37,159 bases of DNA from Sphingomonadales bacterium. Its GTDB lineage: Bacteria; Pseudomonadota; Alphaproteobacteria; Rhodobacterales; Rhodobacteraceae. The notes below the pieces were generated by a model that was given only the letters and a program-made list of their open reading frames with translations, made no database searches and was not told the DNA's origin. Positions 21,202 to 33,715 of the stretch are shown here, one piece after another (position 1 is the first letter of the stretch; the number at the start of each line of letters is the position of its first letter). Position numbers and translations under genes: made by a program. Location: assembly GCA_014763785.1 (NCBI GenBank), contig JACXUS010000006.1, positions 1 to 37,159 of the forward strand, in the 5' to 3' direction.

Positions 21202-24200
21202 ATGACGATGGAAACCAAGTTCGACGCGCGCGAAGCCGAGCCGCGGCTTTATGCGATGTGGGAAGAGGCCGGCGCCTTCAAGGCCGGGGCGAATGCCAGC
21301 CGCCCCGAGACCTTCTGCATCATGATCCCGCCGCCCAACGTCACCGGCGCGCTGCATGTCGGCCATGCCTTCAACAACACGATTCAGGACATTCTGATCC
21401 GCTGGCACCGGATGCGCGGCTATGACACGCTCTGGCAGCCCGGGCAGGACCATGCGGGCATCGCGACCCAGCTGATGGTGGAACGCGAGCTGGCGAAATC
21501 GGGCCAGAAGCGCACCGATTTCAGCCGCGACGAGTTCCTCGGCAAGGTCTGGGAATGGAAGGGCAAATACGGCCAGACGATCATCAATCAGCTGAAACGG
21601 CTGGGCAGTTCCTGTGACTGGTCGCGCAACGCCTTCACCATGTCGGGCGCCCCGAATGCGCCCGAAGGCGAAGAGGGCAACTTCCACGACGCGGTGATCA
21701 AGGTCTTCGTCGAGATGTATAACAAGGGCCTCATCTACCGCGGCAAGCGGCTGGTGAACTGGGACCCGCATTTCGAGACCGCGATTTCCGACCTTGAGGT
21801 CGAGAATATCGAGGTGGCGGGCCATATGTGGCACTTCAAATACCCGCTCGCCGGGGGGGCCACCTATGAATATGTCGAGAAGGACGCAGACGGTAACGTG
21901 ACCCTGCGCGAAACGCGCGATTACATTTCCATCGCGACGACCCGCCCCGAAACCATGCTGGGCGATGGCGCGGTGGCGGTGCATCCCAGTGACGAACGCT
22001 ATGCGCCGATTGTGGGGATGCTGTGTGAAATTCCGGTGGGGCCGAAAGAGCACCGCCGCCTGATCCCGATCATCACCGACGAATACCCCGATCCGACCTT
22101 TGGGTCCGGCGCGGTGAAGATCACCGGCGCGCATGATTTCAACGACTATCAGGTCGCCAAACGCGCGGGCCTGCCGATGTATCGGCTGATGGACACGCGG
22201 GGCGCGATGCGCGCGGATGGCGCAAGTTACGAGGATTGCGCCAAGCGCGCGATGGAAATCTCGCGCGGTGCACCCTTTACCGAGGCCGAGATCGACACTC
22301 TGAACCTGATCCCGGAAGAGCTGCGCGGCCTTGACCGGATGGAGGCCCGCAAGGCCGTGGTCGCCCAGATCAACGCCGAAGGTCTGGCCGTGATGGTCAA
22401 AGCCACGCTCAAGGACGACGAGGGCAACGAGGTCGAAACCCTTGTGCCCTATGTCGAGTCGAAGCCGATCATGCAGCCCTTCGGTGACCGCTCCAAGGTG
22501 GTGATCGAGCCGATGCTGACCGATCAATGGTATGTCGATGCCGAGAAGATCGTCGGCCGCGCACTGGATGCGGTGCGCAATGGCGAGACCGTGATCCTGC
22601 CCGAGGCGGGCGAGAAGACCTATTACCACTGGCTGGAGAATATCGAGCCCTGGTGCATTTCCCGCCAGCTGTGGTGGGGGCACCAGATCCCGGTGTGGTA
22701 TGGGCCGAAGCTTAAGGAAGGTAAGTCGGTCAAATTCGATGGGCCTGACGCCCTCGATTTTGATGAACTTCATCCGTTCTGTGCCGCCTCTTTCTCTGAC
22801 GTCGTGCGCAAAGCGAAATCCTACTATCGCGATGCTGAGGAAGTGTTGGAAAGCAACTCAATCTTCTTCGGCGATGGGAAAGGGCAGCGTTTCTACGGTC
22901 CAAACAAATGCTCCGGCGGTGGCGATCTCAATAGCGTGCAAGTCGGCCTTCGCCGTGACCCCGACGTGCTTGACACATGGTTCAGCTCGGGCCTTTGGCC
23001 GATCGGCACGCTGGGCTGGCCGAACTGGAACGAGTCGACCTCGAAATACTTCCCGACCGATGTGCTGGTGACCGGCTTCGACATCCTCTTCTTCTGGGTC
23101 GCCCGGATGATGATGATGCAGCTGGCCGTGGTCGATCAGATCCCCTTCCACACCGTCTACCTGCACCAGCTCGTGCGCGACGAGAAGGGCAAGAAGATGT
23201 CGAAGACCGCGGGCAATGTGATCGACCCGCTGGAGATCATCGACGAATACGGCGCCGACGCGTTGCGCTTCACCAATGCCTCGATGGCGGCGATTGGCGG
23301 GGTGCTGAAACTGTCGAAAGACCGGATCGCGGGTTATCGCAACTTCGGCACGAAAATCTGGAACGCCACCCGGTTCGCCGAGATGAACGGCGTCTTCGAA
23401 GGGCCCGCGGGCGCGATGCCCACGCCCGAGCATACCGTGAACCGCTGGATCATCGGCGAAACCGCCAAGGTCCGCGAAACCGTCGATGCGGCGCTGGCGG
23501 CCTATCGCTTCAACGAGGCGGCGCAGGCGCTTTATGGCTTCGTCTGGGGCAAGGTCTGCGACTGGTATGTCGAATTCGCCAAACCCCTCTTCGATGGCGC
23601 CGAGGCCGAGGAAACCCGCGCCACCATGCGCTGGGTGCTGGATCAATGCTATATCCTGCTGCACCCGATGATGCCCTTCATCACCGAGGAGCTCTGGGGC
23701 CTGAGCGGCACCCGCGCCAAGATGCTCGTCCACGCCGACTGGCCGACCTATGGCGCCGAGCTGATCGACGCGGATGCCGACCGCGAGATGAACTGGGTGA
23801 TCGAGCTGATCGAAACGATCCGCTCGGCGCGCACCCAGATGGGCGTGCCGGTGGGGCTGAAACTGCCGATGGTGCTGGCCGAGGCCGATGAGGCCGCGCG
23901 CGCCGCCATCGCGCGCAATCAGGCGCTGATCGAGCGGCTGGCGCGGATCGACAGCATCACCGAAACCGCGATCCCCAAGGGCGCGATCTCGATCCCGGTT
24001 GCGGGCGCGCTGTTTGGCCTGCCGCTGGACGGGGTGATCGACGTCAAGGCGGAAAAGGCGCGGCTGGAAAAATCGCTCGCCAAGCTCGAGAAAGAGGCCG
24101 CGGGCCTGCGCGCGAAGCTCGACAACCCGCGCTTCATCGCCAATGCCGCCGAAGAGGTGATCGAGGAAAGCCGCGAGAACCTCGCCGCGCGCGAGGACGA

Positions 24201-24249
24201 GGCCGCCAAGGTCGCAAGCGCCGTCAAGCGGCTGGCGGAACTGGGCTGA
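21202..24249 (+). CDS. valS: Valine--tRNA ligase
   Basis: [18 protein letters not shown] (HIGH), [11 protein letters not shown] editing domain, [44 protein letters not shown] (KMSKS), C-terminal coiled coil. Confidence 0.97.
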
Positions 24250-26559: not shown

Positions 26560-27759
26560 CTATCGCCCCGCGATGGCCGCCGCGGCCGCCGCAATGCCCC
26601 CCGCGCCGTGCGGAATGCCCAGCGCCTGCATCCCGGCCTCCATCACGCCCAGAACGCCCAGCGTCATATGCGCATTGACATGCCCCATATGCGCAACCCG
26701 CAGGAAATCATCCGCCGCGGCCGAGCCCGGCGCGGCCATGCCAAGGCCAATGCCAAGGGTCACGCCCGCCTCGGCCTCGCACCAGGCGCGCAGGCGGCTC
26801 GCCCCGCCGCCCCCGATCCGTGCCGCCGTCACCGAATGACCCCGGAACACCGGATCGGCCACATTGAGCGCGATATCCCCGCCCTGCCCCCAAGCCTCGA
26901 ACGCCGCCCAGACCGTGCGTGCCAGCGTCGCATGACGGGCCCAGACCTGCGGCAGCCCCTCTTCATCGAGGATCATCTTCAGCGACTCGGCCAGACCGAA
27001 CAGGTGATGCGTGGGCGCCGTGCCGCCGAAATGCATGTAATGCTGTTCGGCGAAGAAGCGCGGATGCCAGTTCCAGTAGGGCGTCGCCAGATCCGCCCCC
27101 TTGCAGCGCGTCAGCGCCGTGTCCGAGGCCCAGACGAAGCCCAGCCCCGGCGGCACCATCAGCCCCTTCTGGCTGGCCGCGACCATCACATCGACACCCC
27201 AGTCGTCGAACCGGAATTCATCGCAGCCCAGCGAGGCGATGCAATCCACCGCCAGCAACGCCGGATGTCCGGCCGCGTCGATCGCCGCGCGCATCGCCGG
27301 GATATTGTTGCGGATCGAGGTCGCGGTATCCAGATGCGTGACCAGAACCGCCTTGATCTTATGCCCGGTATCGGCGCGCAACGCGGCCTCGAGCTGCGCC
27401 GGATCGGCCGGGCTGTTCAGCCCGAAATCGAGCAGATCAACCTCGATCCCCATGGCGCGGGCATGCTCGGCCCAGCCAATGCCAAAGCGCCCGGTCGCCA
27501 TCACCAGCGCCCGATCCCCGCGCGAGAACATATTGGCGATCGCCGCCTCCCAGGCGCCGTGGCCGTTGGCGATATAGATCGCGACGTGACCGCTCGACAG
27601 CGCGACACGGCGCAGATCGGTCAGGATGCCCGCGGTCTGGGTGACGATCTCGCCCTCATAGATATTGGGCGCGGCGCGGTGCATGGCGCGCAGCACCCGG
27701 TCGGGCATCGCCGAGGGGCCGGGAATGGCAAGATAGGGGCGGCCGTGGGCAAGGCTCAT
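26560..27759 (-). CDS. Class V PLP-dependent aminotransferase (alanine/serine--glyoxylate aminotransferase-like)
   Basis: YLAIPGPSAMPDRVLRAMHRAAPNIYEGE, VDCIASLGCDEFRFDDWGVDVMVAASQKGLMVPPGLGFVWAS. Confidence 0.88.
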   Translation of the reverse strand: MSLAHGRPYLAIPGPSAMPDRVLRAMHRAAPNIYEGEIVTQTAGILTDLRRVALSSGHVAIYIANGHGAWEAAIANMFSRGDRALVMATGRFGIGWAEHARAMGIEVDLLDFGLNSPADPAQLEAALRADTGHKIKAVLVTHLDTATSIRNNIPAMRAAIDAAGHPALLAVDCIASLGCDEFRFDDWGVDVMVAASQKGLMVPPGLGFVWASDTALTRCKGADLATPYWNWHPRFFAEQHYMHFGGTAPTHHLFGLAESLKMILDEEGLPQVWARHATLARTVWAAFEAWGQGGDIALNVADPVFRGHSVTAARIGGGGASRLRAWCEAEAGVTLGIGLGMAAPGSAAADDFLRVAHMGHVNAHMTLGVLGVMEAGMQALGIPHGAGGIAAAAAAIAGR

Positions 27760-28926: not shown

Positions 28927-29247
28927 ATGCGCGATTTCGTTGACGGCTCCGCATTCAACTATGAGCAAGGCCAACGCGCCCGCAAGCTGTTCGCGGCTGT
29001 GGTGCTGGCGGCGCTCGATGATGCGATTGCCGATGACAAGAAATACGGCAACGGCCCCGAACAGATCGCCCGCTGGGCGCGCTCGCGCGATGGACGCGAG
29101 GTGCTGTCCTGCGCCGGGATCGACCCGAATGAACGGGTGGTCAAAGGTCTGATGGAATTCGTCTCCAAGGGTGTGCGCACCTCGGTCGCGCTGTCGCGCG
29201 AAGAGAGCGAACGCCGGATGGCAGCGGAAGAGGCCGAAGCGGCCTGA
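28927..29247 (+). CDS. Conserved hypothetical protein (possibly the DUF6280 family)
   Basis: MRDFVDGSAFNYEQGQRARKLFAAVVLAALDDAIADDKKYGNGPEQIARWARSRDGREVLSCAGIDPNERVV; strong terminator follows; family number from memory. Confidence 0.75.
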   Translation: MRDFVDGSAFNYEQGQRARKLFAAVVLAALDDAIADDKKYGNGPEQIARWARSRDGREVLSCAGIDPNERVVKGLMEFVSKGVRTSVALSREESERRMAAEEAEAA

Positions 29248-29571: not shown

Positions 29572-29866
29572 ATGTGGACCGGTCTGCCCGGCGCGGCCCT
29601 GCGCGCAAGGTTTGGCGCTCCCCCTTTGGCACAAAGTCCTCTGGGGGCGACACGGACCGAAGCGATGCGTTTGCCCAGTTGATGAATGTGGCGGCGACCC
29701 CAATGCCGCAGTGGCCCTGGGGCCGCCGTCAGGGTCTCCTGCAGCGCAGGCCTCGCTGCTTTCGCCCGGACAGGGCGCCCATGGCAGCATGACGACGCGG
29801 CCCTGAATGCCGCTCCTTGCGGAACGAGACGCGCCGCCCCGGGTCAGCGGGGGCGGCGCAGCCAGA

Positions 29867-31411
29867 TCACTCGTAATCGCGGTTCATCAGCGCGCGCTGA
29901 ATCTCGCGACGCACCAGTTTGCGGACATTCTGGGTGATCCGCTCGCCCAGCGCCCCACGCAGCTCGCGCCGGATCAGGTCCGCCACCAGAGCCTGCAGCG
30001 CCTCTTCATCGACGATCGCACCGTAACCGGCCTCTCCCGAGCCCCATCCGTCCTCGGCGCCGATATCCGCGGGTCCATATCCGCCCGCCGCATAGTCGTC
30101 GCGCAGGCTGTCATAGCTCGACCGAAGGACCTCCGGATCCGGACGCTCCGCCATCGCGTCGGAGAGATGGGCGCGGCGCAATTCGGCGGCAGCCTCCTGC
30201 GTCGCAGCATCCATCAGGTCTGTCTCAAGGTCCGGCAGCTCCACCTCGCCGTCAATCTCGGGCAGGTCCTCGTCCTCACCCTCGACGGCCCAATCGGCGG
30301 TTTCGGCCTCATCCCAGGCCGCATCCTGCAGATCGGGGTCATGATCGGCGGGCATCTGCTCCTCGGCCAGCGCCTCCTCAGCCAACGCGTCTTCGACCAG
30401 CGCCTCTTCGGCAGGGACCGTCGCGAGGGTCGGCTCTTCCACCTCTTCGGCCTGCTCAATCTCACCAGCCATGTCGAAATCGCCGGACACCTCGGCCAGC
30501 TCTTCTGCCACGGTCACATCCGCGTCCTCTGCGGTACCCATTTCTTCCGGATCACCCTCGGGCAGAGCGTCACCGAAGGCCTCCTCCGAGACAGCCTCCA
30601 GCGCCTCGGGGCTCATCACCTCCAGCGCCTCGGCGGCAACGGGGTCTTCGCTGGGCAGGTCCTGAAGGATCTCGGCCTCGAGGATCAGATCCTCCTCGGC
30701 GCGGTGCGCGGCGGTGAACACCGATCTCCCGCCCTCCGCCACAAGCTGCACCGCCTGCGGCGCCTCCTCGGGGATCTCGGCGATGACCGCTTCCGTCGCG
30801 ACCTCAGGATGCGGCTCGGCAATCGGGCGCGCCCCCGCCCGGGCCGAGAGCGCGCGGGTCCAGATGAACGCCTCGGCGGCCTCCAGAGTCTGCGTCGCCG
30901 CGGCGACCTCTTCCGTCGTCGCGACCTCGGGCGTGTCGATCGCGGCCTCCTCGGCCACCTCCAGCGCGGGCAGGCCATCTGCTTCGAAATGATCCCCAAG
31001 CTCGGGCTCGAAGGCGATCCCGCTCTCGGCCACGGCGGCTTCCATCTCGGCAATCGTGCTCTCGAGGCGGCTCAGCTCATCTCCGAGATCTTCGGCCTCT
31101 TCGGGAATCTCGTCGGCAGTCTCGGCGATGGCCTCAACCATAGGCGCCGCTGCGGGCGCATCGCCTTCCGCGCCAGGCTCCTCGACGCGCAGCGCCGGGG
31201 TCAATACCAGACATTCGTCAACGGGGTCTTCGGCGATCTCGACCACCTCGGGCAGCGCCTCGGCGACCGGAACGGCAGCTGCGACCGGCTCGGGGCGACG
31301 GGCCAGGGCAGCCCGCGCGGGATGATGCGTCACCGCAGCATCCTGCGACACGAGCCGACGGATCGACGACAACACGTCCTCAATTTCGATCTTGGTTTTC
31401 GCCTCAGACAT
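29867..31411 (-). CDS. Long acidic, largely disordered protein with PopZ/DUF2497-like termini (candidate polar organizing protein)
   Basis: N-terminal IEDVLSSIRRLVSQD, about 370 aa of Glu/Ala-rich low complexity, C-terminal EEALQALVADLIRRELRGALGERITQNVRKLVRREIQRAL; downstream of tolC and pcm on the same strand. Confidence 0.75.
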   Translation of the reverse strand: MSEAKTKIEIEDVLSSIRRLVSQDAAVTHHPARAALARRPEPVAAAVPVAEALPEVVEIAEDPVDECLVLTPALRVEEPGAEGDAPAAAPMVEAIAETADEIPEEAEDLGDELSRLESTIAEMEAAVAESGIAFEPELGDHFEADGLPALEVAEEAAIDTPEVATTEEVAAATQTLEAAEAFIWTRALSARAGARPIAEPHPEVATEAVIAEIPEEAPQAVQLVAEGGRSVFTAAHRAEEDLILEAEILQDLPSEDPVAAEALEVMSPEALEAVSEEAFGDALPEGDPEEMGTAEDADVTVAEELAEVSGDFDMAGEIEQAEEVEEPTLATVPAEEALVEDALAEEALAEEQMPADHDPDLQDAAWDEAETADWAVEGEDEDLPEIDGEVELPDLETDLMDAATQEAAAELRRAHLSDAMAERPDPEVLRSSYDSLRDDYAAGGYGPADIGAEDGWGSGEAGYGAIVDEEALQALVADLIRRELRGALGERITQNVRKLVRREIQRALMNRDYE

Positions 31412-31553
31412 TTTGTCCCGGTCCTCTCGATTTCTTCAAAATGGGGCCGCCACCGATTCGCGGTCAAGACTAGACCAGAAAGGCGCCAGACCGAAACCGG
31501 CGGCGCCTTTCATCGGATGCGAATCTCTCGAACGGCCAAAGACCGTAGCAGCC

Positions 31554-32929
31554 TCAGGGTTTTCCGATCGCGCGCAGGACCCGGTCCAGGCTTTCGCCCT
31601 GAACGCTGGTCGAGGGTGCATTGCGCACCGCATTGTAATAGGCCGCCGGATCATAGGTCGGGATCCCGAGTTTGAGGTCTTCTACCGTCAACAAACCCAT
31701 AGCGGACAATAGTTGATAATATGCTACCTGCAGATCGGCCTCGGCATTGATCCGCGAAGCGCGGGCATCGAGCAGGTTCTGCTCGGCATCGAGCACGTCA
31801 AGCGTGGTGCGCGCGCCCAGCGTGGCCTCTTCCTTGACCCCGTCATAGGCGATCTGCGCGGCCTGAATCTGCTCGGAATAGGCGCGAATCTGGGCGCGAT
31901 AGACGTCGATCTGGGCCCAGGCCTGCGCCGTCCCTTCGGCCACCGACAGACCCGCCTGCGACAGGGCCGCACGCGTCCCGTCACGATTCGCGATCGCCCT
32001 GCGATGCGCCGCCGACAAGGCGCCACCGGAATAGAGCGTCTGGCTCATCTCGATGCCCGCCGTGCGGGTGGTATAGCCACCCTCCTGCTGCGACAACCCG
32101 ACCGAGCCGGTGACCTGCGGCAGCCGCTCCGCCGCCGCGGCACGGATCCCCAGTTCGCTCAGCGTCACGTTATGCTGCAGCTGCTTGACGTTGGGGTGAT
32201 TGCGCTGCGCGGTTGCGCGCGCGGCATCCAGCGATTTGGGCAGCGCCGGTGCTTTGGGCAGACCGGCAAGCGCCCCGGGATAATGGCCGACGGCCGCCTT
32301 GTACGCCTCGCGCGCGACCTGATATTCGCCGCGCGCCGCCGCCAGCGAGGCCCGCGCCGCCGCCAGCGAGGCTTCGGCCTGCGACACATCGGTCTTGGTC
32401 ACTTCGCCCACTTCAAAGCGGTCCTGAGCCGCCTTCAGCTCTTCGGCGATGACGCGCACCGAATTCTCGTTGATCGCGACCCGCTCGGCCGAGCTTTTGA
32501 CCGCCGTATAGGCCGAAACCGCCGACAGCAGCACATCCTGTTCGACCGCGCGCAGCGCCTCGCGCGTGGCCAGCACGGTTTCCTTCTGCATGTCGATCGC
32601 CAGCCTGTTGCGGCCGAAATCAAACAGCGTCATCGACGCCGCCAGCGTCAGCGAGGCGGTGCGGTGGTCGGCATTCGGATTGGCGTCGAGACGCGAATAT
32701 TTGTAATCGGCAGCCCATTGCAGCACCGGGCGCAGCGCCGCAACCGCCCCTGCGACATCCTCGTCGGCGGCCCGCAGCGTGGCACGGTTCTGCTCCAGCA
32801 GGTTGGAATTGCGATAGGCCGAGACCAGCGCATCCGCCAGGGTCTCTGCCTGCGCCGCCAGCGGCGCCGCGACAATCGCCAAGGCCGTCATGGCAGCCTT
32901 GATCAAGGGTTTCAGGGTCTTGCGCGTCA
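31554..32929 (-). CDS. tolC: TolC family outer membrane efflux/secretion protein
   Basis: Signal peptide MTRKTLKPLIKAAMTALAIVAAPLAAQA; ETLADALVSAYRNSNLLEQNRATLRAADEDV, GARTTLDVLDAEQNLLDARASRINAEADLQVAYYQLLSAMG. Confidence 0.92.
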
Positions 32930-33064
32930 TGGCTCGTTCCTCATCTTGGCGCACAGGGCGCGCGTCGCTTCCGCTTCTAACGGCGGTCCTGTGTGCGACC
33001 GTCGCTCGCCCGGCTACAAATTCAATTTCCCCAATATGATCCCCGGCGCAACCACAAGCCACGC

Positions 33065-33715
33065 TCAGAGAACGAAACCTCGCGCAGCGGTGAAACCGGG
33101 CAACACCGGAGCGGCCGCATTGAACGCATAGCGCCAGGCAATATCGCGGTCGATCTTGCGGCCGATCCGCACCGTGCCAAGCGCCCCTTCCATGAAGAGC
33201 GCGCCGATCCGCCCGCCCTCCTTGAGCTGCGCAAGGATCGCCTCGGGGACCGTTTCGACGCCGCCCTCGATCAGGATCACATCATAGGGGCCGTGCTTGA
33301 CCGCACCGGCCCCAAGCTCACCCGCGACCACGGCCGCATTGTCGGCCCCCAGCTGCGCCAGCACCGCCTCGGCCTGCGCCGCCATCGGCTCTTCTTCCAG
33401 CGCCACGACCGCCTCGGCCATCCGCGCGATCACCGCCGCCGAATAGCCCAGCCCGCAGCCGATATCGAGCACCAGATCGCTCGGCTGAATATCAAGGAAA
33501 TCCAGCAGCTTGGCAAAGTTGCGCGGCTCCATCAGCACACGGCCCGGTGCGATCTCGACATTCTCGCCGATATAGGCGGCCTCGCGGCGCGCGGGCGGCA
33601 CGAACTCTTCGCGCGGCACATGCAGCATCGCCTCGATGATCGGGAATTTCGTCACGTCGTTGGGGCGAACCTGCGTATCCACCATCATGGTGCGGCGCGT
33701 GGCGAAATCTTGCAT
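33065..33715 (-). CDS. pcm: Protein-L-isoaspartate O-methyltransferase family protein
   Basis: [80 protein letters not shown] motif; start at [15 protein letters not shown]. Confidence 0.85.

Follow-up and report, generated by a model that had tools for sequence, protein, structure and literature searches.

In Caulobacter crescentus, the polar organizer PopZ binds clients through its N-terminal helix; oligomerisation and condensation depend on its C-terminal helices, and its linker tunes the fluidity of the condensate (PMC9512792). Client binding is abolished by the substitutions E12K/R19E/S22P (PMC5182065). One partner is ZitP, composed of a zinc ribbon and DUF3426, which contacts PopZ through W35 and a basic patch to which R24 and R27 belong; the ZitP of R. 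sphaeroides carries Q27 and is a poor binder of Caulobacter PopZ, a defect repaired by the substitution Q27R (PMC5182065). The PopZ proteins of Agrobacterium and Magnetospirillum are members of the same orthologous group and contain DUF2497 (PMC6414705). DivIVA, TipN, PodJ and other polar scaffolds resemble PopZ in general concept, as polar hubs built on coiled coils or disordered regions.

Many Rhodobacterales were reported to encode no conspicuous PopZ (PMC5182065), and R. sphaeroides was listed without one (PMC6414705), posing the question of how origins and polar proteins are anchored in Rhodobacteraceae. A literature search, in which subscription journals were scarcely covered, found no description of a Rhodobacteraceae PopZ. 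The gene analyzed here, encoding a protein of 514 aa, is very probably the popZ orthologue of this family, which diverged while keeping its position in the pcm-tolC-popZ locus. It is best filed as a Rhodobacteraceae-wide diverged popZ in a group where PopZ was considered inconspicuous or missing.

Gene and locus

The window is the whole stretch of DNA that was analyzed (37,159 nucleotides); it belongs to a source genome of 3.4 Mb that is 84% complete (G000). The genes of the locus are as follows.

29867..31411, minus strand: probable popZ orthologue, 514 aa, with ATG at 31411, stop codon at 29867-29869 and a start conserved among homologues
31554..32930, minus strand: tolC (outer membrane efflux protein), assigned by Pfam OEP (201.6 bits) and synteny, adjoining the popZ orthologue upstream
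33065..33715, minus strand: pcm (protein-L-isoaspartate O-methyltransferase family), assigned by Pfam PCMT (103 bits) and synteny, likely start at 33715, upstream of tolC
21202..24249, plus strand: valS, inverted and 5.6 kb from the popZ orthologue; elsewhere in alphaproteobacteria it lies directly downstream of popZ

The original prediction had proposed a highly diverged PopZ orthologue for this open reading frame, which was found to be real and conserved; its minus-strand orientation had not been given there, and the N- and C-terminal motifs quoted were both present in the protein. In the alignment, the start MSEAKTKIEIEDVLSSIRRLVSQD lined up with the starts of the homologues (MSEPGTQIEIEDVL...). 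A GAGAGGA stretch is located 5' of the ATG.

The coordinates confirmed that the genes immediately preceding the popZ orthologue on its strand are tolC and pcm. The nearby valS that had also been cited in support is present, but at a distance of 5.6 kb and in the opposite orientation. The gene order described for other alphaproteobacteria proved correct: among 20 canonical popZ loci, all from families other than Rhodobacteraceae, pcm and tolC were upstream of popZ on its strand in 20/20, and valS followed downstream in 19/20. In Rhodobacteraceae, tolC was directly upstream in all 32 loci compared, preceded by pcm in each except L088, whose contig starts inside tolC. A further 80 named genome loci were found via the C-terminal signature, with tolC upstream in 77 and pcm upstream in 78. 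By a strict pattern, the N-terminal motif was found within the same ORF in 77 of these 80; the remaining three comprised two with a slightly different motif and one cut by the contig end. Named carriers included Rhodobacter capsulatus SP108, Rhodobacter viridis, Sinirhodobacter ferrireducens, Phaeobacter italicus, Ruegeria, Roseobacter and Rhodovulum. The 514-aa gene thus occupies the popZ position in the pcm-tolC-popZ(-valS) locus. Adjacency to valS was kept in the early-branching Rhodobacteraceae G021, G025 and G034 and lost at the source locus.

Two neighbouring genes were also noted. A DUF6280 protein (28927-29247, plus strand), convergent with the popZ orthologue, was 87-100% identical in nearly all Rhodobacteraceae loci examined, an unusually high conservation. 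A predicted aminotransferase of the serine-glyoxylate type (26560-27759, minus strand) was found near the locus in many relatives.

Sequence similarity to PopZ

The sole Pfam match of the 514-aa protein was DUF2497 (PF10691), covering aa 468-507 and profile positions 34-73 of 75 with 17.6 bits (E=0.0056). As this value falls short of the curated cut-off of 27 bits, the protein is filed as a diverged orthologue and not as a canonical DUF2497 member, whereas the PopZ proteins of Agrobacterium and Magnetospirillum match DUF2497 conspicuously. No match was obtained when the protein alone was searched against PDB with phmmer, against NCBIfam or against PHROGs. Foldseek returned no PDB match at E<=0.001 for the predicted model, which is mostly disordered. 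The Pfam scan revealed no sequence relation to DivIVA, TipN, PodJ or other polar scaffolds, and no relation of locus to them was found.

For 33 Rhodobacteraceae proteins and 20 canonical PopZ, separate profiles of the first 50 and the last 75 residues were constructed and searched against these proteins, with 5,360 unrelated ORFs of their loci as decoys. With the canonical C-terminal profile, all 33 Rhodobacteraceae proteins outranked the best decoy; with the canonical N-terminal profile, 28 of 33 did. This ranking excludes chance similarity. In the reciprocal direction, the Rhodobacteraceae C- and N-terminal profiles retrieved 16 and 18 of the 20 canonical PopZ, respectively, against the same decoys.

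Direct comparison of the two groups by hhalign, as single comparisons, yielded a probability of 96% (E=3.8e-9) for the N-terminus and 93% (E=2.8e-7) for the C-terminus. When the full Rhodobacteraceae profile was searched against 177,635 distinct PDB sequences, the top match was Caulobacter PopZ (6xry, E=0.0086), aligned residue 1 to residue 1, followed by a next match at E=1.3. When the 33 members were scanned singly with Pfam at E<=0.1, DUF2497 was matched by 27 of them and any other Pfam family by one at most. Profile similarity of both termini to PopZ, which had been suggested as a check, was therefore present. A second check concerned a bona fide PopZ elsewhere: no other DUF2497 was detected at E<=0.001 in the 84%-complete genome, consistent with a single popZ per genome. 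Taken with the locus, the profiles of both ends support the proposed diverged orthology, though not canonical DUF2497 membership.

Architecture of the protein

The following features were assigned within the 514-aa protein.

31340..31390, minus strand: N-terminal motif, aa 8-24 (IEIEDVLSSIRRLVSQD), from the 6xry alignment, hhalign (96%) and a predicted helix at aa 4-28
30011..31336, minus strand: acidic Glu/Asp/Ala-rich linker, aa 26-467, from composition, mostly of low confidence in the model
31187..31210, minus strand: linker motif LVLTPALR, aa 68-75, from its occurrence relative to shuffled sequences
31025..31096, minus strand: Rhodobacteraceae-specific predicted helix, aa 106-129 (LSRLESTIAEMEAAVAES), from the alignment and a pLDDT of about 92
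29873..30010, minus strand: putative C-terminal helix-turn-helix, aa 468-513, from DUF2497 (17.6 bits), hhalign (93%), predicted helices and charge

With Caulobacter PopZ (DUF2497, 6xry), the Rhodobacteraceae form has in common the locus, the N-terminal helix and its register, the C-terminal helix-turn-helix and an acidic disordered middle with an xLxLT motif. It differs from the canonical form in a longer linker with less proline, an unrecognisable helix 2, a Gly-containing turn in place of WLD, a basic last helix, an additional helix (LExxIAELEAAV) and, at the source locus, a displaced valS.

AlphaFold2, run with the Rhodobacteraceae alignment, placed an N-terminal helix at residues 4-28 and two further helices, both confident, at 106-129 and 166-191. 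The C-terminus was modelled as a helix-turn-helix (469-485/487-513), and long stretches of the protein were of low confidence. For canonical PopZ, helices were predicted at 2-17, 141-160 and 168-207, and the layout of N-terminal helix, disordered middle and C-terminal helix-turn-helix was comparable. The canonical helix at 141-160 had no aligned counterpart, and DUF2497 positions 1-33 remained unmatched; helix 2 therefore appears to be absent from the 514-aa protein.

The motif at aa 8-24 is the predicted counterpart of the PopZ client-binding helix (EEILASIRRIISED type), recovered both by hhalign and by the 6xry alignment, with the Caulobacter register kept from Met1. Residues D12, R19 and S22 occupy the same register as E12, R19 and S22 of Caulobacter PopZ. 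In the Rhodobacteraceae alignment, S16, I17 and R18 were invariant, and this helix was among the best-conserved parts.

The linker (aa 27-466, 440 aa) contains 28% D/E, 3% K/R and 21% Ala, and most of it is predicted to be disordered (pLDDT mostly below 50-70). Its proline content was 7.5%, compared to 22% in canonical PopZ linkers. Median linker lengths were about 295 aa in Rhodobacteraceae and about 104 aa in canonical PopZ, so that the linker of the 514-aa protein has about four times the canonical length. The unusual length noted in the original prediction thus holds relative to canonical PopZ, but it is a trait of the whole family and not a peculiarity of this protein. Similarly, the middle region is acidic as described, but it is not featureless, since conserved short motifs occur within it.

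In the first part of the linker, the pattern [VLIMF]xL[TSN] was present in 30 of 33 Rhodobacteraceae proteins (4.2 expected from shuffling) and in 14 of 20 canonical PopZ (0.9 expected). Canonical linkers, too, contain the shorter form xLxLT (DVLELT). This element, DVLELT in the canonical and LVLTPALRV in the Rhodobacteraceae form, is a third motif common to both. The helix at aa 106-129 (block LExxIAELEAAV...EPE) is followed by an (E/W)EP(E/D) motif. As a separate observation, the ORF located after tolC in one genome (L246, G032) contains many repeats of (D/E)xPLIL(S/T/E/G)D, suggestive of an amplified linker motif.

Residues 468-513 are the apparent counterpart of PopZ helices 3-4, the oligomerisation region. 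The Trp and Asp invariant at the canonical helix 3-4 turn (W183 and D185 in L094) were not conserved; in Rhodobacteraceae, the WLD of this turn is replaced by Gly/Ala positions in a Gly-containing turn. The charge of the region was also reversed. Over 38 C-terminal helix residues, the mean net charge was -2.05 (-5 to 0) in canonical PopZ and +4.2 (+1 to +6) in Rhodobacteraceae, and for the last helix the corresponding values were -1.15 (-4 to +1) and +4.8 (+3 to +5), respectively. The last helix of the early-branching G021 had a net charge of +2.

Distribution and intermediate forms

DUF2497 above the cut-off was found in 189 of 240 alphaproteobacterial genomes, compared to only 4 of 150 Rhodobacteraceae genomes. 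The new Rhodobacteraceae profile matched 129 of these 150, leaving about 14% without a match.

Several Rhodobacteraceae retained older features. In G021, the order pcm-tolC-popZ-valS was retained, and the protein joins a canonical-type start (MDDVLASIRRIVIEEE) to a Rhodobacteraceae-type end (DEEALTEKVRDIIRQELTGNFGATLSRNIQKLVQDEVRKAL), the latter being matched by the 514-aa protein itself (E=1.6e-5). A full DUF2497 (69 bits) was present in G309, while G025 and G034 gave 40 and 30 bits, respectively, with valS still adjacent. In a Pcm tree with several weakly supported inner branches, G021 and G309 were placed at the base of Rhodobacteraceae; G025 and G034 branched soon after them, outside the group with the diverged form. 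The early-branching Rhodobacteraceae are bridges between the canonical and diverged forms.

The pcm locus was also inspected in 18 genomes, nearly all of which the Rhodobacteraceae profile matched weakly or not at all. Most encoded a PopZ-like product just after tolC, often short or eroded, and in some nothing recognisable was found. The short and eroded proteins in several non-matching genomes suggest relaxed constraint, and with it erosion of popZ, in some lineages. Short proteins of about 100-210 aa occupied the slot at L233, L236, L238, L239 and L242, some with partial PopZ features.

ZitP and the charge change

ZitP, identified by its zinc ribbon alone (Zn_ribbon_4; loci L251-L338), was detected in 58 of 61 sampled Rhodobacteraceae genomes. 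The 84%-complete source genome yielded no ZitP-type zinc ribbon; its genus relatives have one. In Rhodobacteraceae, ZitP keeps W35 (32/32 sequences examined) and differs at positions 25 and 27 and in charge. Position 25 is D/E, and position 27 is Q/E in 45 of 49 sequences, compared to R/K in 33 of 34 sequences from outside the family. Three of the exceptions carry R27 and come from G309, G021 and G034, genomes in which PopZ is still recognisable or the ancestral gene order persists; the remaining exception, from G025, is a weak match with V27. The net charge of the zinc ribbon was +3.4 (2 to 5) outside and about -3 (-5 to +1) within Rhodobacteraceae, so that this charge, together with positions 25 and 27, separates the family from other alphaproteobacteria.

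As the charge of the ZitP-binding surface of PopZ and that of the zinc ribbon changed in opposite directions, this surface has apparently been re-tuned. TolC, Pcm and ValS shifted by approximately 1-2 charges per 100 residues. The zinc ribbon and the PopZ helices shifted roughly ten times as much, which makes a general drift of proteome charge unlikely as the sole cause. The co-variation of PopZ and ZitP charges corresponds to one or a few evolutionary events and is, statistically, non-independent evidence. It is conceivable, and proposed here tentatively, that both proteins swapped charges together at the base of Rhodobacteraceae, the C-terminal helix of PopZ turning from acidic to basic and the zinc ribbon of ZitP from basic to acidic, giving a re-wired and possibly orthogonal polarity module. 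Such a swap would account for the failure of R. sphaeroides ZitP with Caulobacter PopZ and for its rescue by Q27R.

Proposed function and alternative explanations

The gene descends from the popZ locus, with the client-binding helix and the last helix-turn-helix conserved and the acidic linker much longer. By analogy with Caulobacter, the Rhodobacteraceae protein probably acts as a polar scaffold. Its C-terminal helices would self-associate and assemble a condensate at the cell pole or poles, which the long acidic linker may keep fluid. The N-terminal helix and the linker motifs would recruit clients, e.g., ParB and proteins of the CtrA phosphorelay; the client homologues ChpT and ParB are present in the source genome. 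A charge-adapted ZitP could help, as membrane anchor, to place the condensate. The longer linker would be expected to raise the fluidity of the condensate; speculatively, pairing of the acidic linker with the basic last helix could offset this effect.

With a defined gene at a constant position in the majority of genomes, pole organisation becomes directly testable in Rhodobacteraceae, a large family that includes Rhodobacter, Roseobacter, Phaeobacter and Ruegeria. The family also represents a natural experiment, in which a condensate-forming scaffold changed its linker length and binding charge, and offers a candidate orthogonal PopZ-ZitP pair.

Against this reading stand the DUF2497 score below the cut-off, the unrecognisable helix 2, the replaced WLD, the roughly 14% of Rhodobacteraceae genomes that the new profile does not match, several with eroded proteins in the slot, and the zinc ribbon missing from the source genome. 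One alternative accepts descent from popZ and assumes that the protein no longer organises the poles, serving instead as a scaffold for the envelope, the nucleoid or TolC. The loss of helix 2 and of the invariant Trp, the reversed C-terminal charge, the eroded copies in some lineages and the poor binding of R. sphaeroides ZitP to Caulobacter PopZ (PMC5182065) are compatible with such a change. However, the client-binding helix, with its invariant S16, I17 and R18, is among the best-conserved parts, and ZitP keeps W35 while the zinc-ribbon charge follows the change in PopZ, as expected of a maintained pair. This alternative is considered rather improbable.

Replacement of popZ in its slot by an unrelated acidic coiled-coil protein, with convergent similarity of short helices, is far less probable still. 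The matching blocks are indeed short (about 15-40 aa each) and the Pfam alignment is weak, but each end aligns on its own and right out to the terminal residues, the reciprocal profile searches scored both well clear of the decoys, and the linker motif is common to both forms. Replacement was rejected on account of the reciprocal profile matches and of the intermediates, which join a canonical N-terminus to the new C-terminus at the ancestral locus.

That the ORF itself is an artefact of codon bias at high GC, with the antisense frame likewise open (622 aa, 29807-31675, plus strand), is refuted by the conservation of the minus-strand protein in at least 129 of 150 Rhodobacteraceae genomes, with invariant residues at both ends. 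The antisense frame most likely results from GC-rich codon use.

Divergence of popZ in place thus remains the preferred reading of the locus. Between tolC and the popZ orthologue, an inverted repeat (AAAGGCGCC...GGCGCCTTT) was noted at 31479-31510; it is possibly a terminator or attenuator, in which case the popZ orthologue may have its own promoter.
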